In this document: positions 1 through 20,973 of the stretch, in pieces | Numbering within the stretch: the stretch's first letter is position 1 | Layout: each line of letters starts with the position of its first letter | Source: a virus | Virus record (IMG/VR): IMGVR_UViG_3300036828_001086 | Span: 1-52,004 of that record | DNA length: 52,004 bases | Direction: 5' to 3' (one strand) | Notes under the pieces: generated by a model | What the model saw: the letters and a program-made list of their open reading frames with translations, nothing else | What the model was told of the DNA's origin: nothing | Databases searched by the model: none | Made by a program: the position numbers and the translations under genes

Positions 1-210
1 TTCCTGCCGACCTCGCACTACTGGAACGAGACCTACACCAGCTACCACGCCCGAGCCCACGGCTGGCAGGTCGTCTACTACGGCCCGGTCTGCATCGTCC
101 ACAAATGGCACCGGGCCAGCGCGGTCGGCGGCCCGGTCGACACCAATTCCGCCGTCGACCGCGCCTATTTCCGCCGGGCGTGCGAAGCGCACGGAATGGA
201 TCATGATTAG
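1..210 (+). CDS. Glycosyltransferase-like protein, C-terminal fragment
   Basis: The reading frame enters from the left edge and only its last 69 codons are present, ending in TAG. The fragment is rich in aromatic residues and histidine (HYWNETYTSY, then VYYGPVCIVHKWHRAS), as is common at the C-terminal end of family 2 glycosyltransferases. That reading is inferred, helped by a clear family 2 glycosyltransferase at 725. The last residues, GMDHD, lie inside a 26-bp sequence that recurs at the end of the HNH gene, so this gene was probably once followed directly by the gene at 725. The catalytic half lies outside the window, so the family call is tentative. Confidence 0.55.
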   Translation, partial: FLPTSHYWNETYTSYHARAHGWQVVYYGPVCIVHKWHRASAVGGPVDTNSAVDRAYFRRACEAHGMDHD

Positions 211-216
211 CCATGA
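191..216 (+). repeat. Left copy of 26-bp direct repeat flanking the HNH gene
   Basis: These 26 bases match 703-728 at 24 positions; only 201 (T/G) and 204 (T/C) differ. The copy covers the last codons and stop of the upstream glycosyltransferase gene and the first four bases of the HNH gene. The spacing between copies is 512 bp, which is the HNH gene plus its junction. Confidence 0.9.
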
Positions 217-722
217 CTGACACTGTGATGATTCGCTGTCGTGGGTGTAGACGCTGGAAGGCGCCGTGTCAGTTCAACCGGCAGTCCAAGTCGAGAACTG
301 GCCGTCAGCGCGAATGTCGTGACTGCGCTCACTTGAGACTCCGGGACATCTATGAGGCGCTGTCTCCGGACGAGAAGCGTGATCGCTGGAGGAGCCAGAG
401 GGCACATCGGCGGGAAAATCCGGAGATGTACTACTGGGTCAGAGTCAGGTCGAGGTATGGCATCGAGCGAGCGCAGTTCGAGAAGCTGCTCGCTGACCAA
501 GGTGGTGTCTGTGCCATCTGCCGTACCGACGATCCGGGTGGTCGGTATCGCCAGTGGTGCGTGGACCATGACCATGGCTGTTGTGCCGGGACTAAGAGTT
601 GTGGGAAGTGTGTTCGCGGTCTCCTCTGCTGCCGTTGCAACCTCGGGTTGGGTAGCTTCCTCGACGATCGAGACAGATTGCTTCGTGCCGTTGGGTACCT
701 GGACGGAATGGAGCACGATTAG
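213..722 (+). CDS. HNH endonuclease, recombination endonuclease VII family
   Basis: A 169-residue protein with the zinc-binding and catalytic pattern of phage endonuclease VII-type HNH enzymes: CAIC at residues 100-103, VDHDH at 117-121 (catalytic His region) and the downstream RGLLCCRCNLGLG at 135-147. A second CxxC pair near the N-terminus (CRGC, then CRDC at about residues 9-39) may bind another zinc. Such enzymes cut branched DNA or act as free-standing homing nucleases. The gene lies between two glycosyltransferase genes and is bracketed by 26-bp direct repeats. Its codons end in T more often than its neighbours' (TGT, CGT, GGT), which suggests separate acquisition. The C-terminus GMEHD copies the upstream protein's GMDHD because the repeat is coding. 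Confidence 0.88.
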   Translation: MTDTVMIRCRGCRRWKAPCQFNRQSKSRTGRQRECRDCAHLRLRDIYEALSPDEKRDRWRSQRAHRRENPEMYYWVRVRSRYGIERAQFEKLLADQGGVCAICRTDDPGGRYRQWCVDHDHGCCAGTKSCGKCVRGLLCCRCNLGLGSFLDDRDRLLRAVGYLDGMEHD

Positions 723-728
723 CCATGA
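703..728 (+). repeat. Right copy of 26-bp direct repeat flanking the HNH gene
   Basis: This is the second copy of the repeat at 191-216, with two mismatches. It holds the last codons and stop of the HNH gene and the ATGA that starts the glycosyltransferase at 725. Removing one repeat unit would place the upstream gene's stop two bases before the ATG at 725, giving an intact, ordinary junction. Confidence 0.9.
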
Positions 729-1525
729 GGCAGCTCATCGCCCAGATGGTCATCAAGGACGAAGCCGGCCGGTTCCTCGACCATTCGTTGGAGTGGCACG
801 GCGGAATCTTCGACGCCATCCACGTCTACGACGACGGGTCCACCGACGACAGCGTCGAGATCGCCCTGGACCACGGCTGCTACGTCACCAAACGCCCGTT
901 CACGGTGCCGAGCTTCCTGAAACACGAGGGCAAGTTCCGCCAGGCGGCGTGGCGGGCCATGGAAGAGAAGATCCAACCGACCCTGGACGACTGGGTGTTC
1001 GCCATCGACGCCGACGAATTCGTGGTGTCCCACCGCGACGAGAGCGCCCAACTGAACGCCATCTGCCGGGACGCCGAGCAGGGCGGGGCCAGGGCTGTGC
1101 TCATCCACATCCCGGAGGTCTTTGACACCGAAGTGGTCGAAGACGGCGCCGACACCGTGCTGGTCAAACCGAGGGTGCGGGTCGACGGGTTCTGGGGCAG
1201 GATCGCTGGCACCCGACTGTTCCGCTACCAGCCCTTCGGGGTGATGGCCGACAAGACGATGGCGTCGGGCTCCGAGCCGACCTACGTGACCGGCGCCCCC
1301 CGTATCGACGCCCGTGACCTCTGGTTGATGCACTATGGCTACGCCGACCCGGCGGACCGCAAAGCCAAGTACGAGCGTTACACCGGGGCTCAGCACTTCC
1401 ACTCCGACGCCCACGTCCGCTCGATCGCAGAACCCCCGGACCTGGTCGCCTGGGACGGGCCGAGCGTCGACGTTCGTCGGGGCCGCAGAACGGAGAATGA
1501 GAGAAAGGAAACAGGAGATGGCTAA
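725..1525 (+). CDS. Family 2-type glycosyltransferase
   Basis: This 266-residue protein starts with the typical QMVIKDEAGRFLDHSLEW segment and has the nucleotide-sugar motif DDGSTDDS at about residue 36 and the DxD-type IDADEF at about residue 96, which coordinates the metal and sugar diphosphate. It fits the Glyco_tranf_2_4 group often met in actinobacteriophages. The acceptor is unknown; virion proteins, hypermodified DNA or host surface glycan are all possible. The start is the ATG two bases after the HNH stop; the stop overlaps the next gene by eight bases. The last 30 or so residues are charged and probably disordered. Confidence 0.85.
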   Translation: MRQLIAQMVIKDEAGRFLDHSLEWHGGIFDAIHVYDDGSTDDSVEIALDHGCYVTKRPFTVPSFLKHEGKFRQAAWRAMEEKIQPTLDDWVFAIDADEFVVSHRDESAQLNAICRDAEQGGARAVLIHIPEVFDTEVVEDGADTVLVKPRVRVDGFWGRIAGTRLFRYQPFGVMADKTMASGSEPTYVTGAPRIDARDLWLMHYGYADPADRKAKYERYTGAQHFHSDAHVRSIAEPPDLVAWDGPSVDVRRGRRTENERKETGDG

Positions 1526-2183
1526 GGGTGATGTGCTCATCAATCTGGTGCTGGATCAGAGCGGGTCTATGAACGGCGTGGCGCAGGCCACCATCGACGG
1601 GGTCAACGCCTTCTTGGAGGAGCAGCGGGGCGTGGTCGGCGACGCCTACCTGACCTTGACGCTGTTCGACAGCGAGATCACCGTGCGCTACGAGGCCGGG
1701 GACCTCAAGCTGATCCCGCTCCTGGCGGCCAGAGGCGACAACGCCTACCAGCCGAGCGGCTCGACCGCCCTCTACGACGGGGTGGGCAGAACGGTGGAGC
1801 AGGCCGAGAAGTGGCTGGCCGACAACCCGACCTTCGACGGCCAGGTGGTCTTTGTCGTCCTGACCGACGGCGAAGAGAACGCCTCCCGGCATTGGACGCT
1901 GGACATGGTCAACACCGCCATCCGGGACAAGAAGGAGGCGGGCTGGGAATTCGTGTTCATGGGCTCGGGCGGCGCGGGCTGGACGGAGTCACGCAAGCTG
2001 GACGTCAACACGGCCACCACGATCAACTTCGCCGGCAATGCGGCGACGACGACGGCGGCGTACAGCGCCCTTTCCACCAGCCTGTCGCAGGCCCGGGTCG
2101 CCGGAGTGGACCTGAGCGTGACCATGCCGAGCAACACGGGCTCCTTGCAGGCGGACCCCACTCTTCAGGAGCGTGATGGATGA
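1518..2183 (+). CDS. von Willebrand factor A domain protein
   Basis: A 221-residue single-domain VWA protein with a complete metal-ion-dependent adhesion site: DQSGS (Asp13, Ser15, Ser17), Thr83 in SGSTALYDG and Asp117 in VVLTDGEEN. VWA domains bind a divalent metal and mediate protein-protein contacts. No signal peptide or membrane segment is seen, so it should act in the cytoplasm or be packaged. The ATG at 1518 is chosen because AAGGAAACAGGAG precedes it and the MIDAS domain begins at once; a longer in-frame extension upstream overlaps the glycosyltransferase. Its phage function is unknown. Its place in a modification module suggests a scaffold or chaperone role, which is inference. Confidence 0.88.
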   Translation: MAKGDVLINLVLDQSGSMNGVAQATIDGVNAFLEEQRGVVGDAYLTLTLFDSEITVRYEAGDLKLIPLLAARGDNAYQPSGSTALYDGVGRTVEQAEKWLADNPTFDGQVVFVVLTDGEENASRHWTLDMVNTAIRDKKEAGWEFVFMGSGGAGWTESRKLDVNTATTINFAGNAATTTAAYSALSTSLSQARVAGVDLSVTMPSNTGSLQADPTLQERDG

Positions 2184-2403
2184 GCTGAACGTCGGCACGG
2201 CGCTCTACGACGGAGAGAACTTCGTCGGCCACAGGCCGCGGGTGTGCGGCGAGCATCGCACCGCTGGCTCGCATCGGGCCTGGTGCTACGACTGCGGCGA
2301 ATGGTGCTACCCCGAATCCCCGTGTGTGCGCTGCGAGATCATCCAGCTTCGCGAAGCCGCCGTGCGGCGCCGAGCGGCAGGGCTGGTCCATGAGGACGAC
2401 TGA
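2176..2403 (+). CDS. Small Cys/His-rich protein, possible zinc ribbon
   Basis: A 75-residue protein whose middle holds CGEHRTAGSHRAWCYDCGEWC and then CVRCE: several Cys and His residues in pairs, suggesting one or two zinc sites, followed by a basic helix. ATG 2176 is preferred over GTG 2173 because AGGAG at 2167-2171 is better spaced for it. The gene overlaps the VWA gene by eight bases and the methyltransferase gene by fourteen, so all three are probably translated together. No known family is recognised. It could be a partner or metal-binding adaptor of either neighbour. Confidence 0.65.
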   Translation: MDELNVGTALYDGENFVGHRPRVCGEHRTAGSHRAWCYDCGEWCYPESPCVRCEIIQLREAAVRRRAAGLVHEDD

Positions 2404-3028
2404 CACCACCTACGGGGCCGACTACTGGAACACCCTGGACAGCGGCCGGGGCTACCAGGATTCCACGCTCTGGGAAGACATCGCCCATATCGTCAAGGAG
2501 CTGTTCGCGATCATCGACGCCCAGGACCAGTCCGGCACCCGTCACGTCATCGACGTGGGCTGCGCCATGGGCTACCTGGTCAAGCATCTCCGCCGGCGCG
2601 GCCTGGACGCATGGGGACTGGATTCCTCCACTTACGCCCTCAACCACGCCGACGCGTTCGCCAGACCGTTCCTGTGCGACTTCGATCTCACCGGTCCGGA
2701 CCCGCCGGTGATCTCGGTGCCGTCGTGCAACCTGGTGACCTGCTTCGAGACCTTGGAACACATCCCCGCAGAGCACACCGACACCGCGCTCGGCCACCTG
2801 TGGAATCTGCTGCAACCGGGCGGCGAGGCGCTGTTCACCATCTGCGTCACCGGCCAGCCCGGCTGGGACGACGACCCCACCCACCAGAACGTCGTGGACC
2901 GGGCGTATTGGGATGAGCGCTTCGATCGTCAAGGCTGGCTCCCACTCGATGTAAAGGCTCGGCAACTTCGACAGTTTTGGTTGTTCAGCGCCCATCGGGG
3001 AGTGTGGGTGCTACAAAAGCCCTGGTAG
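2390..3028 (+). CDS. Class I SAM-dependent methyltransferase
   Basis: A 212-residue protein with the class I methyltransferase signature: motif I VIDVGCAMGYL at about residues 53-63, the acidic end of strand beta2 in WGLDSS, a motif II-like LVTCFETLEHIP and LLQPGGEALFTI before strand beta5. It resembles the Methyltransf_23/UbiG-like group, which methylates small molecules or sugars rather than DNA bases; no DNA methylase NPPY or SPPY motif is present. The ATG at 2390 is chosen over an upstream in-frame start because the family N-terminus (YGADYWNTLD) begins there. With the glycosyltransferases nearby, methylation of a glycan is plausible but inferred. Confidence 0.85.
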   Translation: MRTTDTTYGADYWNTLDSGRGYQDSTLWEDIAHIVKELFAIIDAQDQSGTRHVIDVGCAMGYLVKHLRRRGLDAWGLDSSTYALNHADAFARPFLCDFDLTGPDPPVISVPSCNLVTCFETLEHIPAEHTDTALGHLWNLLQPGGEALFTICVTGQPGWDDDPTHQNVVDRAYWDERFDRQGWLPLDVKARQLRQFWLFSAHRGVWVLQKPW

Positions 3029-3042
3029 TCGGCCTAGGTACT

Positions 3043-3059
3043 GTCCCGAACCGCGGGAC
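3043..3059 (+). terminator. Short GC-rich stem-loop after the methyltransferase gene
   Basis: GTCCCG and CGGGAC form a perfect 6-bp stem around a 5-base loop, 14 bases after the methyltransferase stop and in the only gap of this left block (3029-3097). A weak pyrimidine-rich stretch follows but there is no T-run. It could be a terminator or an mRNA boundary between the accessory module and the packaging genes. Confidence 0.35.
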
Positions 3060-3097
3060 GCTTTCCACCACTCCTGTTCAACCTTCGCCTACTCTCT

Positions 3098-3748
3098 ATG
3101 CACGTGAGTGCTCTGGGCACAGTTGCAGCCCTTCCCGACGCCGATGGGATGGTTTTAGTGCGGCTCCCGTCGGGAGCTACCTTCCCGGTCCATTCCGAGG
3201 AAGTCGACTACATCACCGAGCGCGTCGGGCTGTATCTCCAGCAGAACCACTTCCCGAACATCAGCGACCTGCAGGACGTCGACCGCATGCTGGTCCTCGA
3301 ACTCATGTGCTACCGCTGGGGTGTGTGGCTGTCCCGCCAGAAGAACTGGTGGGGCGACTCGATTGACGAGAACGAAACCCAGAAGGCGTTCTCGCAGTAC
3401 TCCAGCGAGTTGCGCCAACTGAAGAAGCTTCTCGGTATCGACAAGATGGCCAGGGACAAGCAGAAAGGCGAGGACTCCGTCACCGCTTACCTGGCCAACC
3501 TCCAAATCCGGGCCAAAGAGTTCGGTGTCATGCGGGAATCTCAGCTGGACAAAGCCCTGGAGCTTTTCCACGAGATGAAGGCGTTGCTGACGCTGAACAG
3601 GAATTGCGACGACCAGGAGAAGCGGGAGATGCACGTCACCGACGCCGACGTGTTGGAGTGGCTGCACGACATCGCCATCCCCGAGTTCGACTCGATCGAC
3701 GAGTATTTCAGAACCCATCAGCAGCGCACGTGGATCAGAGCGATGTGA
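3098..3748 (+). CDS. Phage protein of unknown function upstream of terminase
   Basis: A 216-residue, mostly helical, charged protein. Residues 1-35 look like a small beta-rich domain (GMVLVRLPSGATFPVHSEE); the rest is helix-rich (residues 85-130 are strongly charged, as in a coiled coil) and the C-terminus is acidic then basic. No catalytic motif is seen. Its position just before an HTH gene and the large terminase is where small terminase subunits and packaging accessory proteins sit. No clear ribosome site precedes ATG 3098; GTG 3104 is an in-frame alternative. Its stop overlaps the next start as GTGA. The product cannot be named with confidence. Confidence 0.7.
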   Translation: MHVSALGTVAALPDADGMVLVRLPSGATFPVHSEEVDYITERVGLYLQQNHFPNISDLQDVDRMLVLELMCYRWGVWLSRQKNWWGDSIDENETQKAFSQYSSELRQLKKLLGIDKMARDKQKGEDSVTAYLANLQIRAKEFGVMRESQLDKALELFHEMKALLTLNRNCDDQEKREMHVTDADVLEWLHDIAIPEFDSIDEYFRTHQQRTWIRAM

Positions 3749-6430: not shown

Positions 6431-8214
6431 GCAACGGGAACACCACCATCGTCGAGGGGGACCCGTTCGACGGTCGCACGGTGGTCATCAACGAGAGCGG
6501 CATCGCCGGCGAGGCGATCTACAACGCGCTGCACGGACCGCACCCCGAAATCGCTCAGCTCATGCGCTGGAGCATCACCAACTCGGGCGAGTTCGGGACG
6601 GGCCGGGGCCGGGTCGGGAACCTGTTCCAGCGCGACCGCTACGTCACGCCTCAACGGGTGTTCGAGCAGTTCAAGACGGCCCGGGACATCGTCGACTCCG
6701 ACGACGTCGTCTCGGGGGTGGCGGAGTCGACCGAGAGCCTGGCTTTCAACCGCATCTCGTTCGCCTGCGACGACGAGGACGAAGAGGACATCTGGAGTCA
6801 GATCGCCTTCGACATCGACGTCGAGAGCCGTCTCCGCGAGATGTGGCGCGAGCTGTTCTCGGTCAGCCAGTTCTACGCGGTGACGTGGTGGGGGCAGAAG
6901 GACTACAAGGTGCGGGGCAAGACCGTCAACGGCACCAGACGGAAGAAGGTCTACCCGAACCTGACGGTGCCGCTCGGGGTCAGCATCCTCGACCCGACCA
7001 AGGTGGTCCCGGTCGGCAATTTGATGTTCAACCAGGAACAGCTGGCCTACGTCGCTGACCGCACGGAGACCGACCTGCTCGACGCGGCGGTCTTGAACGA
7101 CCCGCAGGCCGATCCGGTCAGCCGTCAGATCATCGTCGGTAAGTACGACCCGCCGAACTACGAGCGGACGGTGCTGGCCGGCGAGGGCATCGAAGCCGAC
7201 TGGTTGTACATTCTGAATCCCCGCAACGTGTGGCGGCACACGCTGACCCGCAGCCAGTACGAGCGGTTCGCCAAGGTGCGGCTGAAGAGCATCTTCGAGC
7301 TGCTCGACCTCAAGCAGCAGCTACGCCAGATGGACCGCGCCTACCTGATCGGCGGCACCAACTTCATCATCTTGATCAAGAAGGGCACCGAGCATCACCC
7401 GGCCCGACCGGAGGAGATCACCCAGCTGCAAACGCAGGTCACCACAGTGGCCCGCATCCCGATCATCGTCGGCGATCATCGGCTGTCGGTGGAGATCATC
7501 ACCCCGAAGCTGGACGTGACGTTGTCGGCGGAGAAGTACTCAACCATCGACTCGCGCATCACGACCCGGCTGTACCAGATGTTCCTGGTTCACAGCGGCG
7601 CCGGGACGCCCCGCAGCGACGACTCCATCAAGCTGGCCAAGGTCATCGCTCGGGGCCTCGAGTCCCGCCGCTACATGCTGAAACGCACGTTGGAGCGCGA
7701 GATCATGGGTCCCTGCGTCCTGGCCAACCCGTCCCTGACGTCGCAGCCGACTTTGCGCTACCACCCGACCCGCGTCGAGCTGGACTTCGATCCGTCGCTG
7801 GTGCAGTACATCCTCGACCTGCGAGACCGGGGCGACCTGTCGCGCGACTCGGTGTTGAACGAGCTGGACTTCGATGAGGACGAAGAGGCCATCATGCGCC
7901 AGCGGGAGGCGCTGTACTACGACAAATACTTCACGCCGACCAACGTGCCGTTCTCGGCCCCCGGGCCCGGTCACCTGGTCCCGGTGGGGCCGGGAGGCAA
8001 GCCCAGCGAGCTCCCGGCCGAGGGGGCGCCGAGTGTCGGACCGGCGCCCACCAAGCCCAAGCAGCCCTCGAATCCGGTGCCGCCGGCGCCGAACCCGAAG
8101 GCTGTGGGTCGCAGCGCCGGACGCAATCTCGGAGGCAACCGTCGGGGCGGTGGTGCCGCACCCGGAACCGGGCAGGGTGAGCCACCGAGGCGAGGGAGGC
8201 CGAAGAACACATGA
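6427..8214 (+). CDS. Portal protein
   Basis: A 595-residue protein directly downstream of the terminase and upstream of the protease. The length, an acidic helical segment (DDEDEEDIWSQIAFDI), the basic beta-hairpin part and the long helix followed by EIITPKLDVTLSAEKYSTID fit siphovirus portals, which form the dodecameric DNA channel at one capsid vertex. The last 80 residues are Pro/Gly/Arg-rich (KPKQPSNPVPPAPNPK, then GRNLGGNRRGGGAAPGTG) and probably disordered. GTG 6427 overlaps the previous stop (GTGA) and has GGGAAGGGG upstream; an in-frame extension from 6346 lies inside the preceding gene and is not used. Confidence 0.88.
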   Translation: MSNGNTTIVEGDPFDGRTVVINESGIAGEAIYNALHGPHPEIAQLMRWSITNSGEFGTGRGRVGNLFQRDRYVTPQRVFEQFKTARDIVDSDDVVSGVAESTESLAFNRISFACDDEDEEDIWSQIAFDIDVESRLREMWRELFSVSQFYAVTWWGQKDYKVRGKTVNGTRRKKVYPNLTVPLGVSILDPTKVVPVGNLMFNQEQLAYVADRTETDLLDAAVLNDPQADPVSRQIIVGKYDPPNYERTVLAGEGIEADWLYILNPRNVWRHTLTRSQYERFAKVRLKSIFELLDLKQQLRQMDRAYLIGGTNFIILIKKGTEHHPARPEEITQLQTQVTTVARIPIIVGDHRLSVEIITPKLDVTLSAEKYSTIDSRITTRLYQMFLVHSGAGTPRSDDSIKLAKVIARGLESRRYMLKRTLEREIMGPCVLANPSLTSQPTLRYHPTRVELDFDPSLVQYILDLRDRGDLSRDSVLNELDFDEDEEAIMRQREALYYDKYFTPTNVPFSAPGPGHLVPVGPGGKPSELPAEGAPSVGPAPTKPKQPSNPVPPAPNPKAVGRSAGRNLGGNRRGGGAAPGTGQGEPPRRGRPKNT

Positions 8215-9206
8215 GTGTGCTGATCGAGAGCGAGCGGAGCGTCTATCTCGGAGCGCAGGCGTTCCTGATCGAGGAGGGACGCGAGCTGGCCTGGGCGGAA
8301 CGTCACGTGGTCCGCAACCCGGCCCTCAAGTACGTGCTCGGCCGGTTCGTGGAGGCGGACCAGGCCAACCAGAACGGCCACATCTTCGACCGCAAGGAAC
8401 TGGAAGTGGCCCACACCTCGATCCCGAATTCCCCGCTCAATCTGCTGCACCAGCCCCGCTATATCGTCGGGAACTTCGTCGCCGCGGAGATGCTTTACCC
8501 GACCGGCGAGAAGGCGGCTTCGGAGAACCCGTCGAACCCGTATATCGAGGCGTTGGCCTCGTTCTGGCGCTACTACTTTCCCGACGAGTTCACCGCCGTG
8601 GAACGGGCTCACCAGGAAGGCTCCCTGTTCTTCAGCATGGAGTGCGTGCCGAAGACCGTGAATTGCGCGGCGGTGTGCGGGCAGACCTACCAGTACGACG
8701 GTCGTCAGAGTCCCACCTATTGCGACCATCTCAACCAAGCAGGAGCCAAGAAGCGTCTGGGCGAACCGCATTTCACCGGCGGGGCGCTCATCATGCCGCC
8801 GGCCAAGCCGGGATGGAACCACGCGGACGTGACCCAGTTGTCCGGGCTGATGGCCCGTTACGCCAAGGAGGCCGAGGTGGCCCACGACCAGATCTCCCAG
8901 GAATTCGGGCATCTTGACGCCTCTCGGTGGGAGGCGATGGTGGCCCAGCTCATGGGTTTCGCCTACCGGGAGGTGGAGGGGGAGTGGGGCCGGGACTTCT
9001 CCACGGCGGAGCGCAAGCAGCTGGCCGCCAAAGGTCACGCTCTGCCTGACGGTTCCTACCCTATCGTCAGTCCGCAAACTCTCTCCGATGCCATCCAGGC
9101 CATAGGCCGGGCCGGACCAGGCAAACGAGCTCAGGTCATTGCTCACATCAAGAAGCGGGCCGCAGCGTTGGGCCTGTCGTCCAAAGCGGCGCACCTCAAA
9201 GCGTAA
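8211..9206 (+). CDS. Capsid maturation (prohead) protease
   Basis: A 331-residue protein in the canonical protease slot between portal and scaffold. The N-terminal half (GRFVEADQANQNGHIFDRKEL, LNLLHQPRYIVGNFVAAEML, EGSLFFSMECVPKTVNC) fits the actinophage prohead protease pattern, with conserved His and Ser candidates for catalysis. Residues about 261-325 form a separate module (RDFSTAERKQLAAKGHALPD, then IKKRAAALGL) that recurs at the C-terminus of many actinophage and actinobacterial proteins. It would cleave the scaffold and capsid delta region during head maturation. ATG 8211 overlaps the portal stop. Catalytic residues cannot be assigned safely by eye. Confidence 0.8.
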   Translation: MSVLIESERSVYLGAQAFLIEEGRELAWAERHVVRNPALKYVLGRFVEADQANQNGHIFDRKELEVAHTSIPNSPLNLLHQPRYIVGNFVAAEMLYPTGEKAASENPSNPYIEALASFWRYYFPDEFTAVERAHQEGSLFFSMECVPKTVNCAAVCGQTYQYDGRQSPTYCDHLNQAGAKKRLGEPHFTGGALIMPPAKPGWNHADVTQLSGLMARYAKEAEVAHDQISQEFGHLDASRWEAMVAQLMGFAYREVEGEWGRDFSTAERKQLAAKGHALPDGSYPIVSPQTLSDAIQAIGRAGPGKRAQVIAHIKKRAAALGLSSKAAHLKA

Positions 9207-9242
9207 AGAGCCATGTTGCCGAAAGGTTGGGCGAGCTGACCT

Positions 9243-9282
9243 GGTGCGTCAACGCAGGTCCTCATGGTCCGTCAACGCAAGT
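9243..9282 (+). promoter_or_regulatory. Paired 17-bp direct repeats upstream of the scaffold gene
   Basis: Within the 102-base gap 9207-9308, GGTGCGTCAACGCAGGT (9243-9259) and GGTCCGTCAACGCAAGT (9266-9282) match at 15 of 17 positions, 23 bp apart start to start, about two helical turns. The core TGCGTCAACGCA of the first copy is nearly self-complementary. A T-run and a strong GAGGAGG ribosome site follow. The arrangement looks like paired binding sites for a regulator, or a promoter element for the head genes. The role is inferred. Confidence 0.45.
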
Positions 9283-9308
9283 TTTTGATTTCTGAGGAGG
9301 TCCAGACG

Positions 9309-10037
9309 ATGAGTGCGGACAGGATGAGCACGGCGATGAACAGCAGCCTCAAGAGCGTGCACGACCGGCTGATGGCGGAGAAGCCTGAAGACGCCGTGCA
9401 CGACTCCGATGGCTGTCCTCTTTGCGCCATGGATGAGGGAGGCCAGGCGGGTGATGAGATGACCTACTCCGACGAAGAGCTTGCGTCTCGGGTGGAGGCG
9501 GCGGTCGAGGCGGCCAAAAAGCCACTTGAGGACCGTATCGCTGAGCTGGAGACGGAGGTCCAGACCACCGAAGTCGAGCAGGCCAAGGCTGCCTTGCGGG
9601 CGTCGTTCGAGCCGCAGATCGCTGAGCTGCAGACGCGTCTCGACGAGGCAGTACTGGAAGCCGCCAATGCCGCGACCCAGCGTGACGCCATCGTCACCTG
9701 GCTGGAAGCGGAGTCGGTGGCAGCCGAGGAACGCGAGACGATGGTGGCCCGCAGGCAGGACCGTCTGTCCAAGATCCGTGAGGTCGCCAACTTCCCGGAG
9801 GGCTACCTCGAAGCCAACATCGACCGGTTCGCGGCGATGAGCGACGAGGACTTCGCTGCTGCCTGTGACAGCTGGTCTCAGCTGTCGGCCGTGAAGCCCG
9901 ACACCATCCCGGAGAAGACGGCTTTGCACGCCGCTCGGGACGGGGCGACGACGATCCCGTCGAGCTCGAGTTCGGCCGTCAAGGAACTGTTCGCCATGCG
10001 CCGGGAACACGGGCGCCTCGATCTCTCGACCTTGTAA
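9309..10037 (+). CDS. Scaffolding protein (putative)
   Basis: A 242-residue acidic protein lying between protease and capsid genes. Residues about 55-150 are a long coiled coil (repeated EELASRVEAAVEAAKK, RIAELETEVQ, FEPQIAELQTRL), followed by a helical C-terminus that ends in a basic stretch (MRREHGRLDLSTL), the usual form of a scaffold that binds the inside of the capsid shell. A CPLC motif near residue 36 is unusual. The ATG at 9309 is set by GAGGAGG just upstream; an in-frame upstream ATG at 9264 lacks such a site. It should be removed by the protease during head maturation. Confidence 0.75.
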   Translation: MSADRMSTAMNSSLKSVHDRLMAEKPEDAVHDSDGCPLCAMDEGGQAGDEMTYSDEELASRVEAAVEAAKKPLEDRIAELETEVQTTEVEQAKAALRASFEPQIAELQTRLDEAVLEAANAATQRDAIVTWLEAESVAAEERETMVARRQDRLSKIREVANFPEGYLEANIDRFAAMSDEDFAAACDSWSQLSAVKPDTIPEKTALHAARDGATTIPSSSSSAVKELFAMRREHGRLDLSTL

Positions 10038-10049
10038 GGAGGGGGTGCA

Positions 10050-10625
10050 ATGACCACGTATGGGCGGAACTTCGGTTTCCGCGTAGCTCCGCAGAACGAG
10101 AGTCGGCAGGGACGGTTTTCGACGCCTCCGGCCGGCAACCCGATCCCGTTGGGGGCTCCGGTGATTGCCGATCTGGCGGCCGGGCTCGACCCGTTCGGCA
10201 ACCAGATCGTCAAGCTGGCCCCGAGCGGCACGCTCACGACCGCTGGCGCTCTTCTGGGCATCTGCGTGTACGAGTACGCGCCGGCCGCTTTCGCTGGGCT
10301 CGACCCGCTGCTCACCACGTACTCGGACCTTGGGACAGCGCCGCTGGCCAAGGCCATCCAGGTCATCTTCGGAGTGCAGACGAAGCTCTGGTTGGCCAAC
10401 ACCGTGACGGAGAGCTTCCTCGGGGCGCGCACGTATCCGGGCCGGACGATGGTCAGCGGCATCGGTGCGTCGCCCACGGTCATCGTTGGCGACTACCTCA
10501 TCCCCTTCACCGGTGACGACGTCAACGGCTATTGGCAGTCAACCGCCACCGCCGCCGGAGCTTGGGCTGTCATAACCAACGTCGACACGGTTCGGGCTGA
10601 GGTCGAAGCCCGACTGCTCTTCTAA
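10050..10625 (+). CDS. Capsid decoration or head-stabilising protein (putative)
   Basis: A 191-residue protein immediately before the major capsid gene, behind a strong AAGGAGGGGG. It is beta-rich and glycine/threonine-rich (GNPIPLGAPVIADLAAG, LGICVYEYAPAAF), with an ordinary length for head decoration proteins, which often precede the capsid gene in actinophages. No enzymatic motif is present. The call rests mainly on position and composition. Confidence 0.6.
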   Translation: MTTYGRNFGFRVAPQNESRQGRFSTPPAGNPIPLGAPVIADLAAGLDPFGNQIVKLAPSGTLTTAGALLGICVYEYAPAAFAGLDPLLTTYSDLGTAPLAKAIQVIFGVQTKLWLANTVTESFLGARTYPGRTMVSGIGASPTVIVGDYLIPFTGDDVNGYWQSTATAAGAWAVITNVDTVRAEVEARLLF

Positions 10626-10640
10626 GGGGGAGGGCCAGAT

Positions 10641-11651
10641 ATGGGCAACTCGGTCATGGTCGATGCGTTTGGGCGTACTGACGACGATCGTCGTCAGCTA
10701 CGGGAGAAGTTGGATGCCGTCAACCGGGAGGCGGCCGCGAATTGGGATGACCCGGTGTGGCGTCGGGAGATGGCTCAGGACATGACTGAGACCATCTACT
10801 GGGGCTTCCAGCACGAGAACCTCCTCGGTCTGTACACCCAGGTCGACAACGTCGATTTCTCTGGGCGTTCGTTCGTGAAGGAAACCCGGGGTCTGCGGGC
10901 GTTCTGGTTGGCTCGCGGCGCCTACATCGAGCAGAGCACGTTGCATTCGGAGGTCTTCGAGATCGCCCGTGACGTGATCGGCTTCCACGTCTCGGAGATG
11001 GAAGACAAGCTGCGGGTCAGTTTCGGTGAGACGCAGGCCACCCTGGTCGATCTTGGTGTGCAACGCCTGGACGCCATGGTCAATCAACGCGTGTTGACGC
11101 TGTTCCAGGCGGCTATCCCGAACACGTCGCCGTACTACAGCTCGGCCGCGGGTATCAGTCTGACGGCGGTCAACACGGCGCTGCGCCAGGTCCGGGACGT
11201 GAGCTTGGACTTCAACATCACCATCCTCGGGCGCTCGACGGTCACCGACCAGATCATCGACGCCATCATGGGCACCGGCCAGAACACGGCCGGGTTCTTC
11301 CCCGAGACCAACGAGCAACTCCTCCAGCAGGGCGTGCTCGGCGTCTACCGGGGCGCTCGCATCGTGACCCTGAAGAACTACCGGGACGACGTGGATGTGC
11401 CGTTCTTCCCGGCCAACGAGCTGTGGGTGATCGGCCGGGACGCCTCCAAGTTCGCCTTCTTCGGTGGGCTCCTTTCCAAGGAGTACACCGAGGAGGACAA
11501 CTGGTACTGGCACTACCTGGCCCGCCGCGACTTCGGCGGCGTGGTCTACCGGCCGAACCGGCTGCGTCGGATCGTTGACACTTCGATCGCGGCGACCTTC
11601 GGCTCCGGCGGCACGTACACACCGGTGGGGAGCACCGGGGGCGGCGACTAG
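10641..11651 (+). CDS. Major capsid protein, HK97 fold (putative)
   Basis: A 336-residue protein in the capsid position. The N-terminal charged helix (DDDRRQLREKLDAVNREAA), the extended arm around SGRSFVKETRGLRAFW, a spine-helix-like region and a C-terminal half with VPFFPANELWVIGRDAS and FGGVVYRPNRLRRIVDTSIA fit HK97-type capsid proteins. It forms the icosahedral shell. The strong GGGGGAGGG ribosome site before ATG 10641 suits a highly expressed gene, and a perfect GC-rich stem-loop follows the stop. The C-terminal GSTGGGD is a flexible tail. Confidence 0.88.
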   Translation: MGNSVMVDAFGRTDDDRRQLREKLDAVNREAAANWDDPVWRREMAQDMTETIYWGFQHENLLGLYTQVDNVDFSGRSFVKETRGLRAFWLARGAYIEQSTLHSEVFEIARDVIGFHVSEMEDKLRVSFGETQATLVDLGVQRLDAMVNQRVLTLFQAAIPNTSPYYSSAAGISLTAVNTALRQVRDVSLDFNITILGRSTVTDQIIDAIMGTGQNTAGFFPETNEQLLQQGVLGVYRGARIVTLKNYRDDVDVPFFPANELWVIGRDASKFAFFGGLLSKEYTEEDNWYWHYLARRDFGGVVYRPNRLRRIVDTSIAATFGSGGTYTPVGSTGGGD

Positions 11652-16792: not shown

Positions 16793-17335
16793 ATGCCGGT
16801 TGACCTGTTCTCTGAGTACTACAGGTGGACCGTCACTGCTGGCGGCACCAGCGCGCCCACGTCAGGGGCGTCCGAGACTCTCACGGTGGCGTCGTCAACG
16901 GGGGCACCCCCTGCGTCCAATGGCGCTTCGCCTACGACCCAGTTCCGGATCGTGGATGCGGCGGACACCAACGCGCCGCCGGAGATCATGGTCGTCACCA
17001 ATGTGTCGGGCACGAGCTGGATAGTGACGAGAGGCGGCGAGGGGGCAGCGCCGTGGGCGCACGCCGGTGGCTGGACGGCGCTGCCGGTTCTGACTGCTCA
17101 GGCGTTGCAGAGCCTATCGACAGTTGCGAAATTCGCTGGGGCGCTCAACGGATCTGCTTCGCCGGAAACGATCACTCACAACTTGAATACGAGGGACATC
17201 ATCGTGGCTGTGTATAACGGTGCATCGCCTTACGGCGCCGTTTCGGTCGACTGGGCACCCACCACCGTCAACACGGTGACCATCACTTATAGCCCTGCCT
17301 TGGGATCCGGATATCGCTGCGTGGTGGTGGGCTGA
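16793..17335 (+). CDS. Fibre adaptor / minor tail protein
   Basis: A 180-residue protein. The N-terminal half has the fibre-associated pattern TVASSTGAPPASNGASPTTQ ... RIVDAADTNAPPEIMVVTNV ... VTRGGEGAAPWAHAGGW, which in many actinobacterial and phage fibres precedes a shaft. The C-terminal part (HNLNTRDIIVAVYNGASPYG) is a small beta domain that is also seen at the start of the gene at 19708 (SHNFGTLNVLVQAWD). The stop overlaps the next ATG. It likely links fibre and virion. Confidence 0.7.
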   Translation: MPVDLFSEYYRWTVTAGGTSAPTSGASETLTVASSTGAPPASNGASPTTQFRIVDAADTNAPPEIMVVTNVSGTSWIVTRGGEGAAPWAHAGGWTALPVLTAQALQSLSTVAKFAGALNGSASPETITHNLNTRDIIVAVYNGASPYGAVSVDWAPTTVNTVTITYSPALGSGYRCVVVG

Positions 17336-18984
17336 TGAGTCCCAGATCTTACGGCACCACCAACGCCATTCCCCTCGCCTCGCCGCCTCCTATTGGTGCG
17401 GCGGGGGACTCCTACTACGACACGACCTACAAGACACTGTGCATCTCGGATGGCACGGCTTGGGGTGCAGTGGCTGGCCAGTATACGACGAATATTGTCG
17501 TCGATTACGGGACGACCGATCTACTCCCGTCGTACACCTACAACAATGCCGCCGGTACCATCACTTCCACTGTCAACGCTGTTTTCACTGTCGATGGGGC
17601 CAGCCCGGCGGCGGGCAGACGGATCCTGGTCAAGAACTCGCAGGGTGTCGTCGCTGGGCAGAACGGTCTTTATGCGGTTACCAATCCCGGTTCGGCCTCG
17701 ACCCCCTGGATATTGACCAGAACGAACGACCCGATCACAACCGGAACGCAGGTCTACATCCGCAATGGGTCCACGCTGGCGAACTCTGTGTGGCTGCAGC
17801 AGAACGGGCCTCCTCCGATCACCCTCGGCACCACTGCGCAGCTATGGATGGTTGTGGGGCAGCTCCAGGTCACTGGCAACAACGCCGGTGTTCCTGGCTT
17901 CGTCGGAACCGCTCAGGGCGGTCTTCCAACCGGGGGCTCTGCTGGTCAGGTGCTGGCCAAGAACTCCGCCACCAGTTACGACACGTTGTGGGTGTCTCCT
18001 TACGGCACGATCATGGGTGCCCCGGCTGACTTCAACGGCGATACCACGACCGGTATCTATTTCCAACTCAGCAGTAACCCGAACGGACCGCCGGGTAATG
18101 TCGAGTACGGGTTCCTGCAGGTCTTCAACTTCAATGCAACCAACATCACCCAGGTATGGACGGCAGAGGACGGCACCCAACACGCGATGCGGGGCTACAC
18201 GGGTGCTTGGTCTCCGTGGCAGACCGGTATCCCGCCGGCGGTGGCGACAACCGTTGCTGGTCCTGATGCGTTCGGTGCGGCGTCGGTCGTGGGTTCCAGC
18301 GCGTTGTATGCCAGGGCTGACCACCATCACGGGTTGCCAGCCACACCGGCTCCGTATGCTCAGGTGCAGGCAACAGCACCGAATGCCAGTGCTCCCGCCA
18401 TTGCTCCCCCTGCTGGCTTCCTGTGGGTGGACAACTCGACCACGGCCACCTGGGCGGCGGCACCGTTCTTCCCCAGCCAGACGCCGCCGGTCTCGGGGTT
18501 CAACTCCTTCACCGACGGTGCCGGGGACGTATGGGTGTCCCTCAACGGGAGTGCGTGGAAGAGAGCACGGGATGCTCTGCACTGTCGGGTGTACCGGAAT
18601 ACTGCCTTTACGCCTACTGTCGCCTGGGCTGCTGTCCTCTTCGATACTGTCGATCGTGATCTCACTGCTCTCTATGCGCCTGCCACTGGACGCTTCACGG
18701 CCCCGGTGGCGGGCTGGTACCTGGTCAACGGCATCATCAACAGCGGAGCTCCTGCAACGGGCCAATACATCAACTCGGCCATCTACAAAAACGGGGCATC
18801 GTATGCGAACACCGGTCAGCAGACCTACAGCGGTTCTGGGAACTGGCCGGTAGCCTATACGTCGGCAACGCTCTGGGCTGCTGCCGGAGACTACTTCCAG
18901 GTTTACCTGTCAGCGACTATCCCTTCGATTGCCCCTGGTAGTCAATCATTTTGGGCCACCTTCGATTACATGGGGACGGGCTGA
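17335..18984 (+). CDS. Tail fibre with pyocin-knob-like and C1q-like domains
   Basis: A 549-residue fibre. Residues 1-200 have the usual fibre pattern (GDSYYDTTYKTLCISDGTAWG ... ILVKNSQGVVAGQNGLYAV). About residues 220-300 (GAPADFNGDTTTGIYFQLSS to RGYTGAWSPWQTG) match the pyocin knob fold. After a linker (SGFNSFTDGAGDVWVSLNGS) the C-terminal 130 residues (YRNTAFTPTVAWAAVLFDTV, GRFTAPVAGWYLVNG) look like a trimeric C1q/TNF-like jelly roll, often the receptor-binding head. The next two genes repeat the linker and head, so this appears to be a fibre family produced by tandem duplication. Confidence 0.82.
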   Translation: MSPRSYGTTNAIPLASPPPIGAAGDSYYDTTYKTLCISDGTAWGAVAGQYTTNIVVDYGTTDLLPSYTYNNAAGTITSTVNAVFTVDGASPAAGRRILVKNSQGVVAGQNGLYAVTNPGSASTPWILTRTNDPITTGTQVYIRNGSTLANSVWLQQNGPPPITLGTTAQLWMVVGQLQVTGNNAGVPGFVGTAQGGLPTGGSAGQVLAKNSATSYDTLWVSPYGTIMGAPADFNGDTTTGIYFQLSSNPNGPPGNVEYGFLQVFNFNATNITQVWTAEDGTQHAMRGYTGAWSPWQTGIPPAVATTVAGPDAFGAASVVGSSALYARADHHHGLPATPAPYAQVQATAPNASAPAIAPPAGFLWVDNSTTATWAAAPFFPSQTPPVSGFNSFTDGAGDVWVSLNGSAWKRARDALHCRVYRNTAFTPTVAWAAVLFDTVDRDLTALYAPATGRFTAPVAGWYLVNGIINSGAPATGQYINSAIYKNGASYANTGQQTYSGSGNWPVAYTSATLWAAAGDYFQVYLSATIPSIAPGSQSFWATFDYMGTG

Positions 18985-18987
18985 TCG

Positions 18988-19704
18988 ATGCCGACGCTGA
19001 AGTACTGGGATGTCACGTCGGGGCAGTACATTGCCATCACCCCGGTGGGTCCGACCTACGCCAACGTCGCCGCTACCGCCCCCAATGCTGCCGCCCCGGT
19101 GATCAACCCGCCCAACGGGTTCCTGTGGGTGGACACCTCGACCACTGCTTCCTTTGTGGCGACCCCGTACTACCCGCCCCAGACCCCACCGGCCAGCGGA
19201 TTCAACAGCTTCACCGACTCCGGTGGCGAGGTCTGGGTGTCTCTCAACGGGAGTGCCTGGAAGAAGGCTCGGGACGGGCTTCATGCTTTCTACTACAGGA
19301 ATGCTGCCTACACCCTAGTGGTGGGAACAGTCACTGCTTTGCCATACGATACAAGGGCGAATGACACCTATGGACTGTATAACGCCTCCACTGCTCGGAT
19401 GACCTTTCCGGTAACGGGGTGGTGGAGTATTCACACACAGATGAACGTGAACTTCACTGCGGCGGGCCAGTATGGTCAAACACTTCTGCAATATATCAGC
19501 GGAGGGGGCGGTCCTGGTAACTATGCCAATAGCGTCATCGGCACCTCTGGTGCCGCCGTATGGTCATCTATTGAGTCCACTTATACGGCTTTTTTCGGCA
19601 GTGGGAACCAACTGGAGACAGATGCCCTCGCTAGTGCAGCACTACCCGTGAATTCTGGACCAGCAAACTCCTTCCTCACTATCGACTACCTCGGGACGGG
19701 CTAA
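18988..19704 (+). CDS. Short fibre with C1q-like head, second of three
   Basis: A 238-residue protein that begins MPTLKYWD, passes through a TANVAATAPNA-type spacer and the linker SGFNSFTDSGGEVWVSLNGS, then ends in a jelly-roll head (YYRNAAYTLVVGTVTALPYD, RMTFPVTGWWSIHTQ) closing in DYLGTG, as the gene at 17335 closes in DYMGTG. The head sequence differs far more than the linker, as expected if receptor-binding specificity is under diversifying change. It starts three bases after the preceding stop with no clear ribosome site, so translation is probably coupled. Confidence 0.8.
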   Translation: MPTLKYWDVTSGQYIAITPVGPTYANVAATAPNAAAPVINPPNGFLWVDTSTTASFVATPYYPPQTPPASGFNSFTDSGGEVWVSLNGSAWKKARDGLHAFYYRNAAYTLVVGTVTALPYDTRANDTYGLYNASTARMTFPVTGWWSIHTQMNVNFTAAGQYGQTLLQYISGGGGPGNYANSVIGTSGAAVWSSIESTYTAFFGSGNQLETDALASAALPVNSGPANSFLTIDYLGTG

Positions 19705-19707
19705 CCG

Positions 19708-20973
19708 ATGGCACAACTGAAGTACTGGGACGCGGGGTCGGCGCAATACGTCGCCCTGCCGGGGCTGGTGACGGGTGGATCCCTGGTCAGCAGCACCATT
19801 CTCAACACCCCTACGGTGGCGAGCTCGCCCTACACGATCTCCCACAACTTCGGCACCCTCAACGTGCTGGTGCAGGCGTGGGACGTGGTCACGGGTGACC
19901 TGATCATCACCCGGATGCACTTGGCCGACGCCAACCACGTCCAGGTCTACTTCGAGCAGAACGCACCCAACAACGTCAACGTGCTCGTCCTGGGCAACGG
20001 CGGCAGCCTGGCCTCTGCTCCTGTGGTGGCTGCTCGGATGACCAACACCACTGTCGCCCAGCATCTCGCTGGGGGTCCCGTGTCTCTCGTCTACGGTACC
20101 GTGGAGTACGACTCAAATGCTGCTTGCAATGCAGCCAACGGCACCTTCACGGTTCCCGCCGGTCAGGGAGGGGACTACTTGGTGACTGGGGGATGGGCGA
20201 CTACCAACTTGGCAGGAGGCAACACACTGGCTGCCGAGATCTACAAAAACGGTGTCATCTATGCGGATGGGAGCCAGGTTACTTTCGCTGGTTCGGGGAT
20301 TTCTGTATACGTCTCCACTGTGGTGCGCTGCAACGCCGGGGACACACTCCAGGTGATGGCAGCCCCCGGAGCAGCTTGTGATGTGTTCATCGGCGGTAAC
20401 TGGGTCTACATGTCGGTCCACCGGATCGTTCCCAACCTCCAGGCGGTGGGAGCCTACGTTCCGCCACAGGTTCCGCCGCCCTCCGGGTTCAACAGCTTCA
20501 CCGACCCCAGTGGAGAGGTGTGGATCTCCCGCAACGGCAGCACATGGAAACGGGCACGCGCTGCGCTCCACAGTCGGGTGTTTCGCAACGTAGCATGGAC
20601 GATTGGCACCGCCGCTGCCGTCGTCAATTTCGACACCACTGTCCGAGACGACTACGCGATCTACACCAGTGCTGGAGTGTTCGTTGCTCCCATCGCTGGC
20701 TGGTACTCAGTGTTTCTCAATATCGCTGCTACGTACGGTACGCCACCGTTCTGGCTGACTGGAAGCTTGTACCTGAATGGTGGTCGGGTCGGATACCCGA
20801 CAGCGAATGGACCGGCAGGCCAGAACTGGATAGCGCTTGTCTTCAGTGAGTCGTACTCCCTGGCAGCCGGCGACCAGCTGTATTTCACTGTGGCTGGATC
20901 GGTGGCCAGTATCGGGGGCGGAACGGGAAACGATCTGGGCGCTATGGGCATGAGCTACCTCGGTCCAGGATGA
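19708..20973 (+). CDS. Fibre with two C1q-like domains, third of three
   Basis: A 421-residue protein starting MAQLKYWDAGSAQYVAL like its neighbour. An N-terminal beta domain (residues 20-105) is followed by a first jelly-roll domain at about 110-235 (GTFTVPAGQGGDYLVTGGW, AEIYKNGVIYADGSQ), the linker SGFNSFTDPSGEVWISRNGS, and a second jelly-roll head from about residue 285 (FRNVAWTIGTAAAVVNFDTT, GVFVAPIAGWYSVF). It ends SYLGPG. The double head suggests fusion of a fourth copy into this gene. Confidence 0.8.
   Translation: MAQLKYWDAGSAQYVALPGLVTGGSLVSSTILNTPTVASSPYTISHNFGTLNVLVQAWDVVTGDLIITRMHLADANHVQVYFEQNAPNNVNVLVLGNGGSLASAPVVAARMTNTTVAQHLAGGPVSLVYGTVEYDSNAACNAANGTFTVPAGQGGDYLVTGGWATTNLAGGNTLAAEIYKNGVIYADGSQVTFAGSGISVYVSTVVRCNAGDTLQVMAAPGAACDVFIGGNWVYMSVHRIVPNLQAVGAYVPPQVPPPSGFNSFTDPSGEVWISRNGSTWKRARAALHSRVFRNVAWTIGTAAAVVNFDTTVRDDYAIYTSAGVFVAPIAGWYSVFLNIAATYGTPPFWLTGSLYLNGGRVGYPTANGPAGQNWIALVFSESYSLAAGDQLYFTVAGSVASIGGGTGNDLGAMGMSYLGPG

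Follow-up and report, generated by a model that had tools for sequence, protein, structure and literature searches.

Copied gene ends at Endonuclease VII-type HNH genes in phages point to probable homing insertions that carry a replacement end for the target gene

Mitochondrial homing endonuclease genes of the mORF type replace the C-termini of other genes, namely atp6 in Allomyces and atp6, atp9, cox2 and nad3 in Glomus (PMC3630166). In T4-like phages, seg/mob genes show biased inheritance in mixed infections (PMC2988022). F-CphI of cyanophage S-PM2 is described, in an excerpt of its report (PMC6083498), as a homing endonuclease of the DHHRN family with an Endonuclease VII motif. The locus analyzed here belongs to a phage that is known from a metagenome record alone, and "the window" is the whole stretch of DNA that was analyzed, the 52,004-base virus record IMGVR_UViG_3300036828_001086. 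The features of the locus were as follows:

1 to 210, plus strand: 3' end of GT1, a family 2 glycosyltransferase gene truncated by the window start, ending in HGMDHD and a stop; 71.8% DNA match to a glycosyltransferase gene of phage GX15bay
191 to 216, plus strand: repeat copy 1, with the five final GT1 codons (193-207), TAG (208-210), CC and the HNH start ATGA; 24 of 26 positions identical to copy 2
213 to 722, plus strand: Endonuclease VII-type HNH gene, an ORF of 169 aa (PF02945, 1.1e-18), all invariant catalytic residues present
237 to 326, plus strand: N-terminal C-x2-C...C-x2-C stretch of the HNH protein (C9, C12, C35, C38), cysteines conserved in the alignment
441 to 704, plus strand: Endonuclease VII catalytic domain (DHDH, R and N motif), PF02945 match
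703 to 728, plus strand: repeat copy 2, with the five final HNH codons (705-719), TAG (720-722), CC and the GT2 start ATGA
725 to 1525, plus strand: GT2, a glycosyltransferase gene downstream of the HNH gene (PF13704, 1.4e-11), with a homolog directly after GT1 in GX15bay and in the viral contig L002

Direct comparison confirmed the claim of an earlier note that 191-216 and 703-728 match at 24 of 26 positions; the alignment is ungapped and the spacing is 512 bp. The best match between the start-side and stop-side stretches of the HNH gene scored 20 (+1/-2), while the maximum in 400 dinucleotide-preserving shuffles was 13, and a score of 20 was reached by only one of 661 control ORFs in related loci. 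Copy 1 reads AC GGA ATG GAT CAT GAT TAG CC ATGA and copy 2 reads AC GGA ATG GAG CAC GAT TAG CC ATGA, so copy 1 is the GT1 end plus the HNH start and copy 2 is the HNH end plus the GT2 start. In other words, the C-terminal coding segment of GT1, five codons and a stop, is doubled around the HNH ORF (193-210 and 705-722). The repeats do bracket the HNH gene, as had been noted, and the HNH ORF at 213-722 sits between two glycosyltransferase genes; the repeat is also coding on both sides, with the HNH protein ending in GMEHD and GT1 in GMDHD, each before the stop. Both junctions are tightly spaced (TAG-CC-ATG) and all three genes are open. The clean junction expected after removal of one unit was reproduced by scripted deletion of either 191-702 or 217-728, which leaves GT1 ending in HGM(E/D)HD and a stop, then CC and the ATG of GT2.

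At each junction the repeat takes in a stop and a start with a short spacer between them, which would suit a translation or regulatory cassette that the phage reuses at many junctions and that would be uninformative on insertion. This reading was rejected on the distribution of the core motif: the full 12-bp core, GATTAGCCATGA, is restricted to these two places within the 52 kb of the window. The coding part is, moreover, conserved as the tail of the GT1 protein in relatives that have no HNH gene, and a cassette of this kind is hardly credible. A single gene flanked by two near-identical direct repeats also resembles the product of a transposon-like target-site duplication, in which staggered cutting and fill-in leave identical 26-bp copies. 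However, the HNH ORF is the only ORF between the repeats, inverted repeats are absent from the ends of the insert and the copies track the reading frame of the target gene, while the related cases described below have diverged copies of unequal length, 5 to 30 codons, unlike a fixed duplication. A DNA transposon with a target-site duplication was rejected, as neither a transposase nor terminal inverted repeats were found inside the duplication, and we consider a duplication of this type very improbable. The better reading of the repeat, judged from sequence, is that of a replacement end of the target gene, which the insert would have carried.

The HNH protein matched PF02945 with 67.4 bits, above the curated cut-off of 23.6, and its D-H-H-R-N residues (D118, H119, H121, R135, N143) and zinc cysteines (C100, C103, C139, C142) are intact; the roles of these residues are known from T4 Endonuclease VII and F-CphI (PMC6083498). 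The N-terminal C-x2-C...C-x2-C stretch is a possible zinc-binding DNA-recognition part. The gene is free-standing, that is, it lies outside any group I intron or intein, and it has its own start and stop codons; an intron reading was rejected, as an Rfam search of positions 1-2500 returned no intron and just two sub-threshold chance matches. The gene is also compositionally foreign, with a GC3 of 0.67 compared with 0.84-0.90 in the neighboring genes. Because G[MI][DE]HD is the ending of the GT1 family, and because 14 homologous nucleases lack such a tail and end at YL plus a few residues unrelated to GMEHD, the GMEHD and stop at the end of the HNH protein are, by this comparison, the GT1 tail and stop, borrowed from GT1.

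The earlier note had also predicted that relatives lacking the insert would hold a single copy of the repeat, and two relatives with one copy of the tail were found. In phage GX15bay (MK557849), GT1 and GT2 overlap by one base with no nuclease between them, and GT1 ends in DLHGIDHD; in L002 (IMGVR_UViG_3300042691_015370), the two genes also overlap with no HNH gene, and GT1 ends in DDWGIEHD. The adjacency of GT1 and GT2 in these phages indicates that an empty site exists, and since the G-[MI]-[DE]-HD ending is present in both, it is a feature of GT1. As both relatives are distant, the empty site holds for gene order and not for exact DNA. The visible part of GT1 is 69 residues long; Pfam gave no match to this fragment, so GT1 was identified via its GX15bay relative. 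Searches of viral contigs returned no relatives with the 69-residue fragment and no match to the exact 26-bp motif. Window positions 725-3028, before the terminase, encode a glycosyltransferase, a VWA-domain protein and a methyltransferase, and a relative, L006, has a different glycan-type gene set there. L006 also has the nearest terminase relative (7363-11028), an ORF of 1221 aa with two large intein-like inserts. Further along the window (17335-20973), three successive ORFs have similar C-termini (FDYMGTG, IDYLGTG and MSYLGPG), as in repeated tail-type genes.

Homologs of the nuclease were gathered from viral contigs, genomes and annotated phages. In a direct-repeat survey, a score of at least 15 was found for 10 of 179 unique nuclease genes versus 2 of 661 control ORFs, with several kinds of arrangement included. 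A strict nucleotide register test gave just two independent cases, the window and L033, and a protein tail test yielded more. In this test the C-terminus of each nuclease was compared with that of its upstream neighbor, anchored at the stop, using HMM-called genes. A tail score of 22 was reached by 10 of the 121 phage-context Endonuclease VII HNH genes with an upstream gene, where 0.10 was expected from shuffling neighbors between loci, and ten cases were reached in none of 200 shuffles. Copied tails are concentrated at nuclease genes; about 92% of the Endonuclease VII HNH genes have no copied tail, and genome-derived loci as a group showed no excess of tail copies. The accepted set consisted of nine of the ten phage cases and one genome-derived case (L101), and the window provides no independent support because it seeded the survey. 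The shared tails and, where assigned, the target genes were:

Window: GM[DE]HD; GT1
L201: NNPFYDRRRS; terminase large subunit
L224: SDVTAVIA[AT]AGIFRAQ
L212: up to 30 residues, diverged; RuvC-like resolvase
L231: VWAGQVG
L033: LEGLRK; neighbor resembling a minor capsid protein of phage Magritte
L072: LGGAIS; major capsid
L206: L[RK]GAP
L216: LKGE[RK]; RecE-like exonuclease
L101, from a Micrococcaceae genome: QCDMEIS; portal-MuF

The target genes of L201, L072, L101, L212 and L216 were assigned by Pfam or PHROGs. In phage Magritte itself, the gene of that minor capsid protein overlaps the tail terminator gene directly. In L072, a G+C-rich hairpin-like stretch follows each copy and also follows the capsid gene of relatives (by eye, unscored). 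The remaining phage case, L031, passes the score, but its 18-residue resemblance is weak and the case was discounted. Three tandem or domain-sharing nuclease pairs (L122, L141 and L112) were set aside because their shared ends resemble the nuclease itself.

Other arrangements were also seen. In two mirror cases, it is the N-terminus of the gene downstream that the nuclease repeats at its own N-terminus: L127:1596-2318 (MALTWEKHPVDGPFATEIR versus MSLTWDKHPVDGPFAVEIR) and L093:2962-3441 (MARPGAVISATK versus MARPSAIISALK, with GTG starts). Four further arrangements from the DNA-repeat survey (L115/L120, L144, L226 and L161) were of other kinds and were not counted as tail copies. In L144:2857-3570, L115/L120 (about 2507-3485) and L226:2920-3729, two versions of part of a neighboring gene flank the nuclease; the doubled parts are an endolysin or amidase N-terminus or a tail-like C-terminus, and they look like a remnant and an intact copy. 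In L161, repeat copies around the nuclease gene (2770-2792 and 3479-3501) resemble putative tRNA 3' ends (GGTTCGAACCCA...). In Streptomyces genomes, a PF02945 match was found in 246 of 296; most of these matches lie in frames of about 200 aa, which look like a resident gene of the chromosome rather than a phage insertion.

The ten tail cases required nine Fitch changes on a catalytic-domain tree, and the nearest pair of them was 55% identical. Because the cases scatter over the tree, the tail-copy state arose repeatedly, with about nine separate origins. In a cruder control, three of the top-scoring "ordinary" pairs were themselves nucleases: L101 and L216, which are Endonuclease VII genes that the motif had missed, and the HNH_3 nuclease at L227:5662-6165 (PF13392), which ends in TIRTV and a stop like its upstream gene. 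The appearance of this HNH_3 nuclease among the controls suggests that the pattern may extend past Endonuclease VII types. Over the ten cases, 31 codons were identical, 41 differed synonymously and 11 were replaced, a ratio that is explained in part by case finding through protein similarity, which biases toward synonymous differences.

These results bear on an origin without homing, in which illegitimate recombination brought the nuclease gene and a short junction duplication was kept because it preserved both neighbors, the nuclease having its role elsewhere (junction resolution or attack on competitors) and not being the cause of the move. Cargo genes do enter phage junctions without homing, Endonuclease VII enzymes double as resolvases, and homing cleavage specificity is putative here. 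However, the clustering of copied tails at nucleases far above the shuffled expectation, the nucleases hidden among the top "ordinary" pairs and the 41 synonymous versus 11 replaced codons, which suit a homolog-derived end better than plain duplication, all argue against such an origin, and we regard it as unlikely. The earlier note had called the locus the footprint of a mobile endonuclease that carried or duplicated its target. Insertion is supported by the empty site, the foreign GC3 and the recurrence in independent phages; duplication of the target in the manner of a transposon is not, and a replacement gene end fits better.

The best case for determining which copy is native is L201. In the Streptomyces phages LuckySocke, GiJojo, BRock and pSt2308, the terminase ends in NNPFYDRRR or SNPFYDRRR, and the gene after it is a homolog of the gene 3' of the nuclease in L201. 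The codons AAC AAT CCG TTC TAC GAT of GiJojo and pSt2308 are identical to those of the nuclease-end copy in L201, and the terminase's own copy is two synonymous changes away. Because the empty relatives match copy 2, the nuclease-end copy looks native and the insert seems to have supplied the terminase copy. Between the two copies in L224, 11 codons differ; each of them has G or C in third position at the nuclease end, and none has on the upstream gene (body GC3 0.88), so that third-position composition also makes the nuclease-end copy look native and the other one supplied. Composition leans the same way in the window, L231, L201, L206 and L212, the opposite way in L033 and L072, and is tied in L101 and L216; the polarity signal across cases is mixed. 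The relatives of the window are too distant to separate its two tail copies, which match GX15bay at 15 of 18 against 14 of 18 nt; in the proposed insertion, the native tail would be copy 2, at the nuclease end.

Klebsiella phage kpssk3, which has a nuclease between gp11 and gp12, was compared with three relatives that lack it. Identity along gp11 is 22-30 of every 30 nt and drops to 18 of 30 in the final 30 nt; of the last 12 codons, 2-3 are identical, 5-6 are synonymous and 4 are replaced. Past the nuclease, gp12 matches at 18-19 of its first 30 nt, after which identity resumes. This looks like a cassette with recoded ends of both neighbors that recombined on both sides and left no duplicate.

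Taken as a homing insertion, the window locus probably arose when a free-standing gene for a homing endonuclease of the Endonuclease VII type came in at the last codons of GT1 with a replacement tail and captured the native one. The gene would have inserted in frame within the final codons as a mobile piece of about 512 bp, made up of a replacement GT1 tail and stop followed by a nuclease ORF that brought no stop. GT1 would then end in the supplied tail, and the native tail, still joined to GT2, would supply the nuclease with its five final residues and its stop. If it works like other homing endonucleases, the window enzyme would cut the GT1-tail/GT2-start site where a co-infecting phage has it uninterrupted, and repair would copy the gene in. 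Insertion would split the native site, and the supplied tail may be protected by its synonymous recoding. Homology-based repair on both sides would replace the native ends, which would be the outcome in kpssk3; joining of the right side in frame into the native tail would make that tail the nuclease C-terminus and keep the duplicate, which would be the outcome in the window.

The same arrangement at other genes in at least eight unrelated phages suggests a general way to invade without harming the host. In its broadest form, to which we give even odds, Endonuclease VII-type and perhaps HNH_3 homing endonucleases of phages would repeatedly invade terminal codons as recoded-end cassettes, capture the native end as their C-terminus (or N-terminus in the mirror cases L127 and L093) and thereby mark their recognition site with the copied tail, so that cleavage targets could be predicted from sequence alone. 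To our knowledge, it is usually not known which sites free-standing phage nucleases recognize. Were the copied tail a mark of the insertion site, every such gene would bring a testable substrate, its neighbor's native end plus the gene that comes next. The ability of selfish genes to settle at essential phage genes (terminase, capsid, portal) while the host survives would then be explained as well, and a mechanism described in fungal mitochondria would operate in phages too.

A search of open-access full texts found no phage report of such tail copying, which is weak evidence because subscription papers fall outside that coverage. The seg/mob genes of T4-like phages are likewise intronless endonuclease genes between phage genes, but they encode GIY-YIG or HNH/Mob enzymes, and neither "duplication" nor "in-frame" is a word that the review applies to them (PMC2988022). 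Homing endonuclease genes near essential phage genes have similar neighbors (terminase, capsid and replication genes), but the families surveyed were T5orf172 and IPA-HNH, and copied gene ends are not mentioned in the sections consulted (PMC10448857). The methylase insertion with a hidden HNH endonuclease in phage ShiLan, as given in part of its report, is also an in-frame HNH insertion with homing-like behavior, but it lies within one gene and has no stop codons, whereas the window insert is placed at the end of a gene and comes with a copied tail (PMC11855218). F-CphI shares with the window protein the catalytic motif, its position in the C-terminal half and the form of a small free-standing phage protein; it differs in that it cuts psbA near an intron site with proven cleavage, where cleavage by the window enzyme is putative, and the excerpt describes no copied neighbor tail (PMC6083498). 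The mORF genes place an endonuclease ORF at the 3' end of a conserved gene together with a second C-terminal coding piece, the endonuclease is in phase with the coding pieces, and in Glomus the inserted piece preserves the protein while its DNA differs largely synonymously, although the enzymes are of the LAGLIDADG or GIY-YIG type, the setting is mitochondrial and the C-terminal pieces are longer (PMC3630166). In the window, by comparison, the enzyme is of the Endonuclease VII type, the setting is a phage, and the native tail, of five codons, would be read as the C-terminus of the nuclease.
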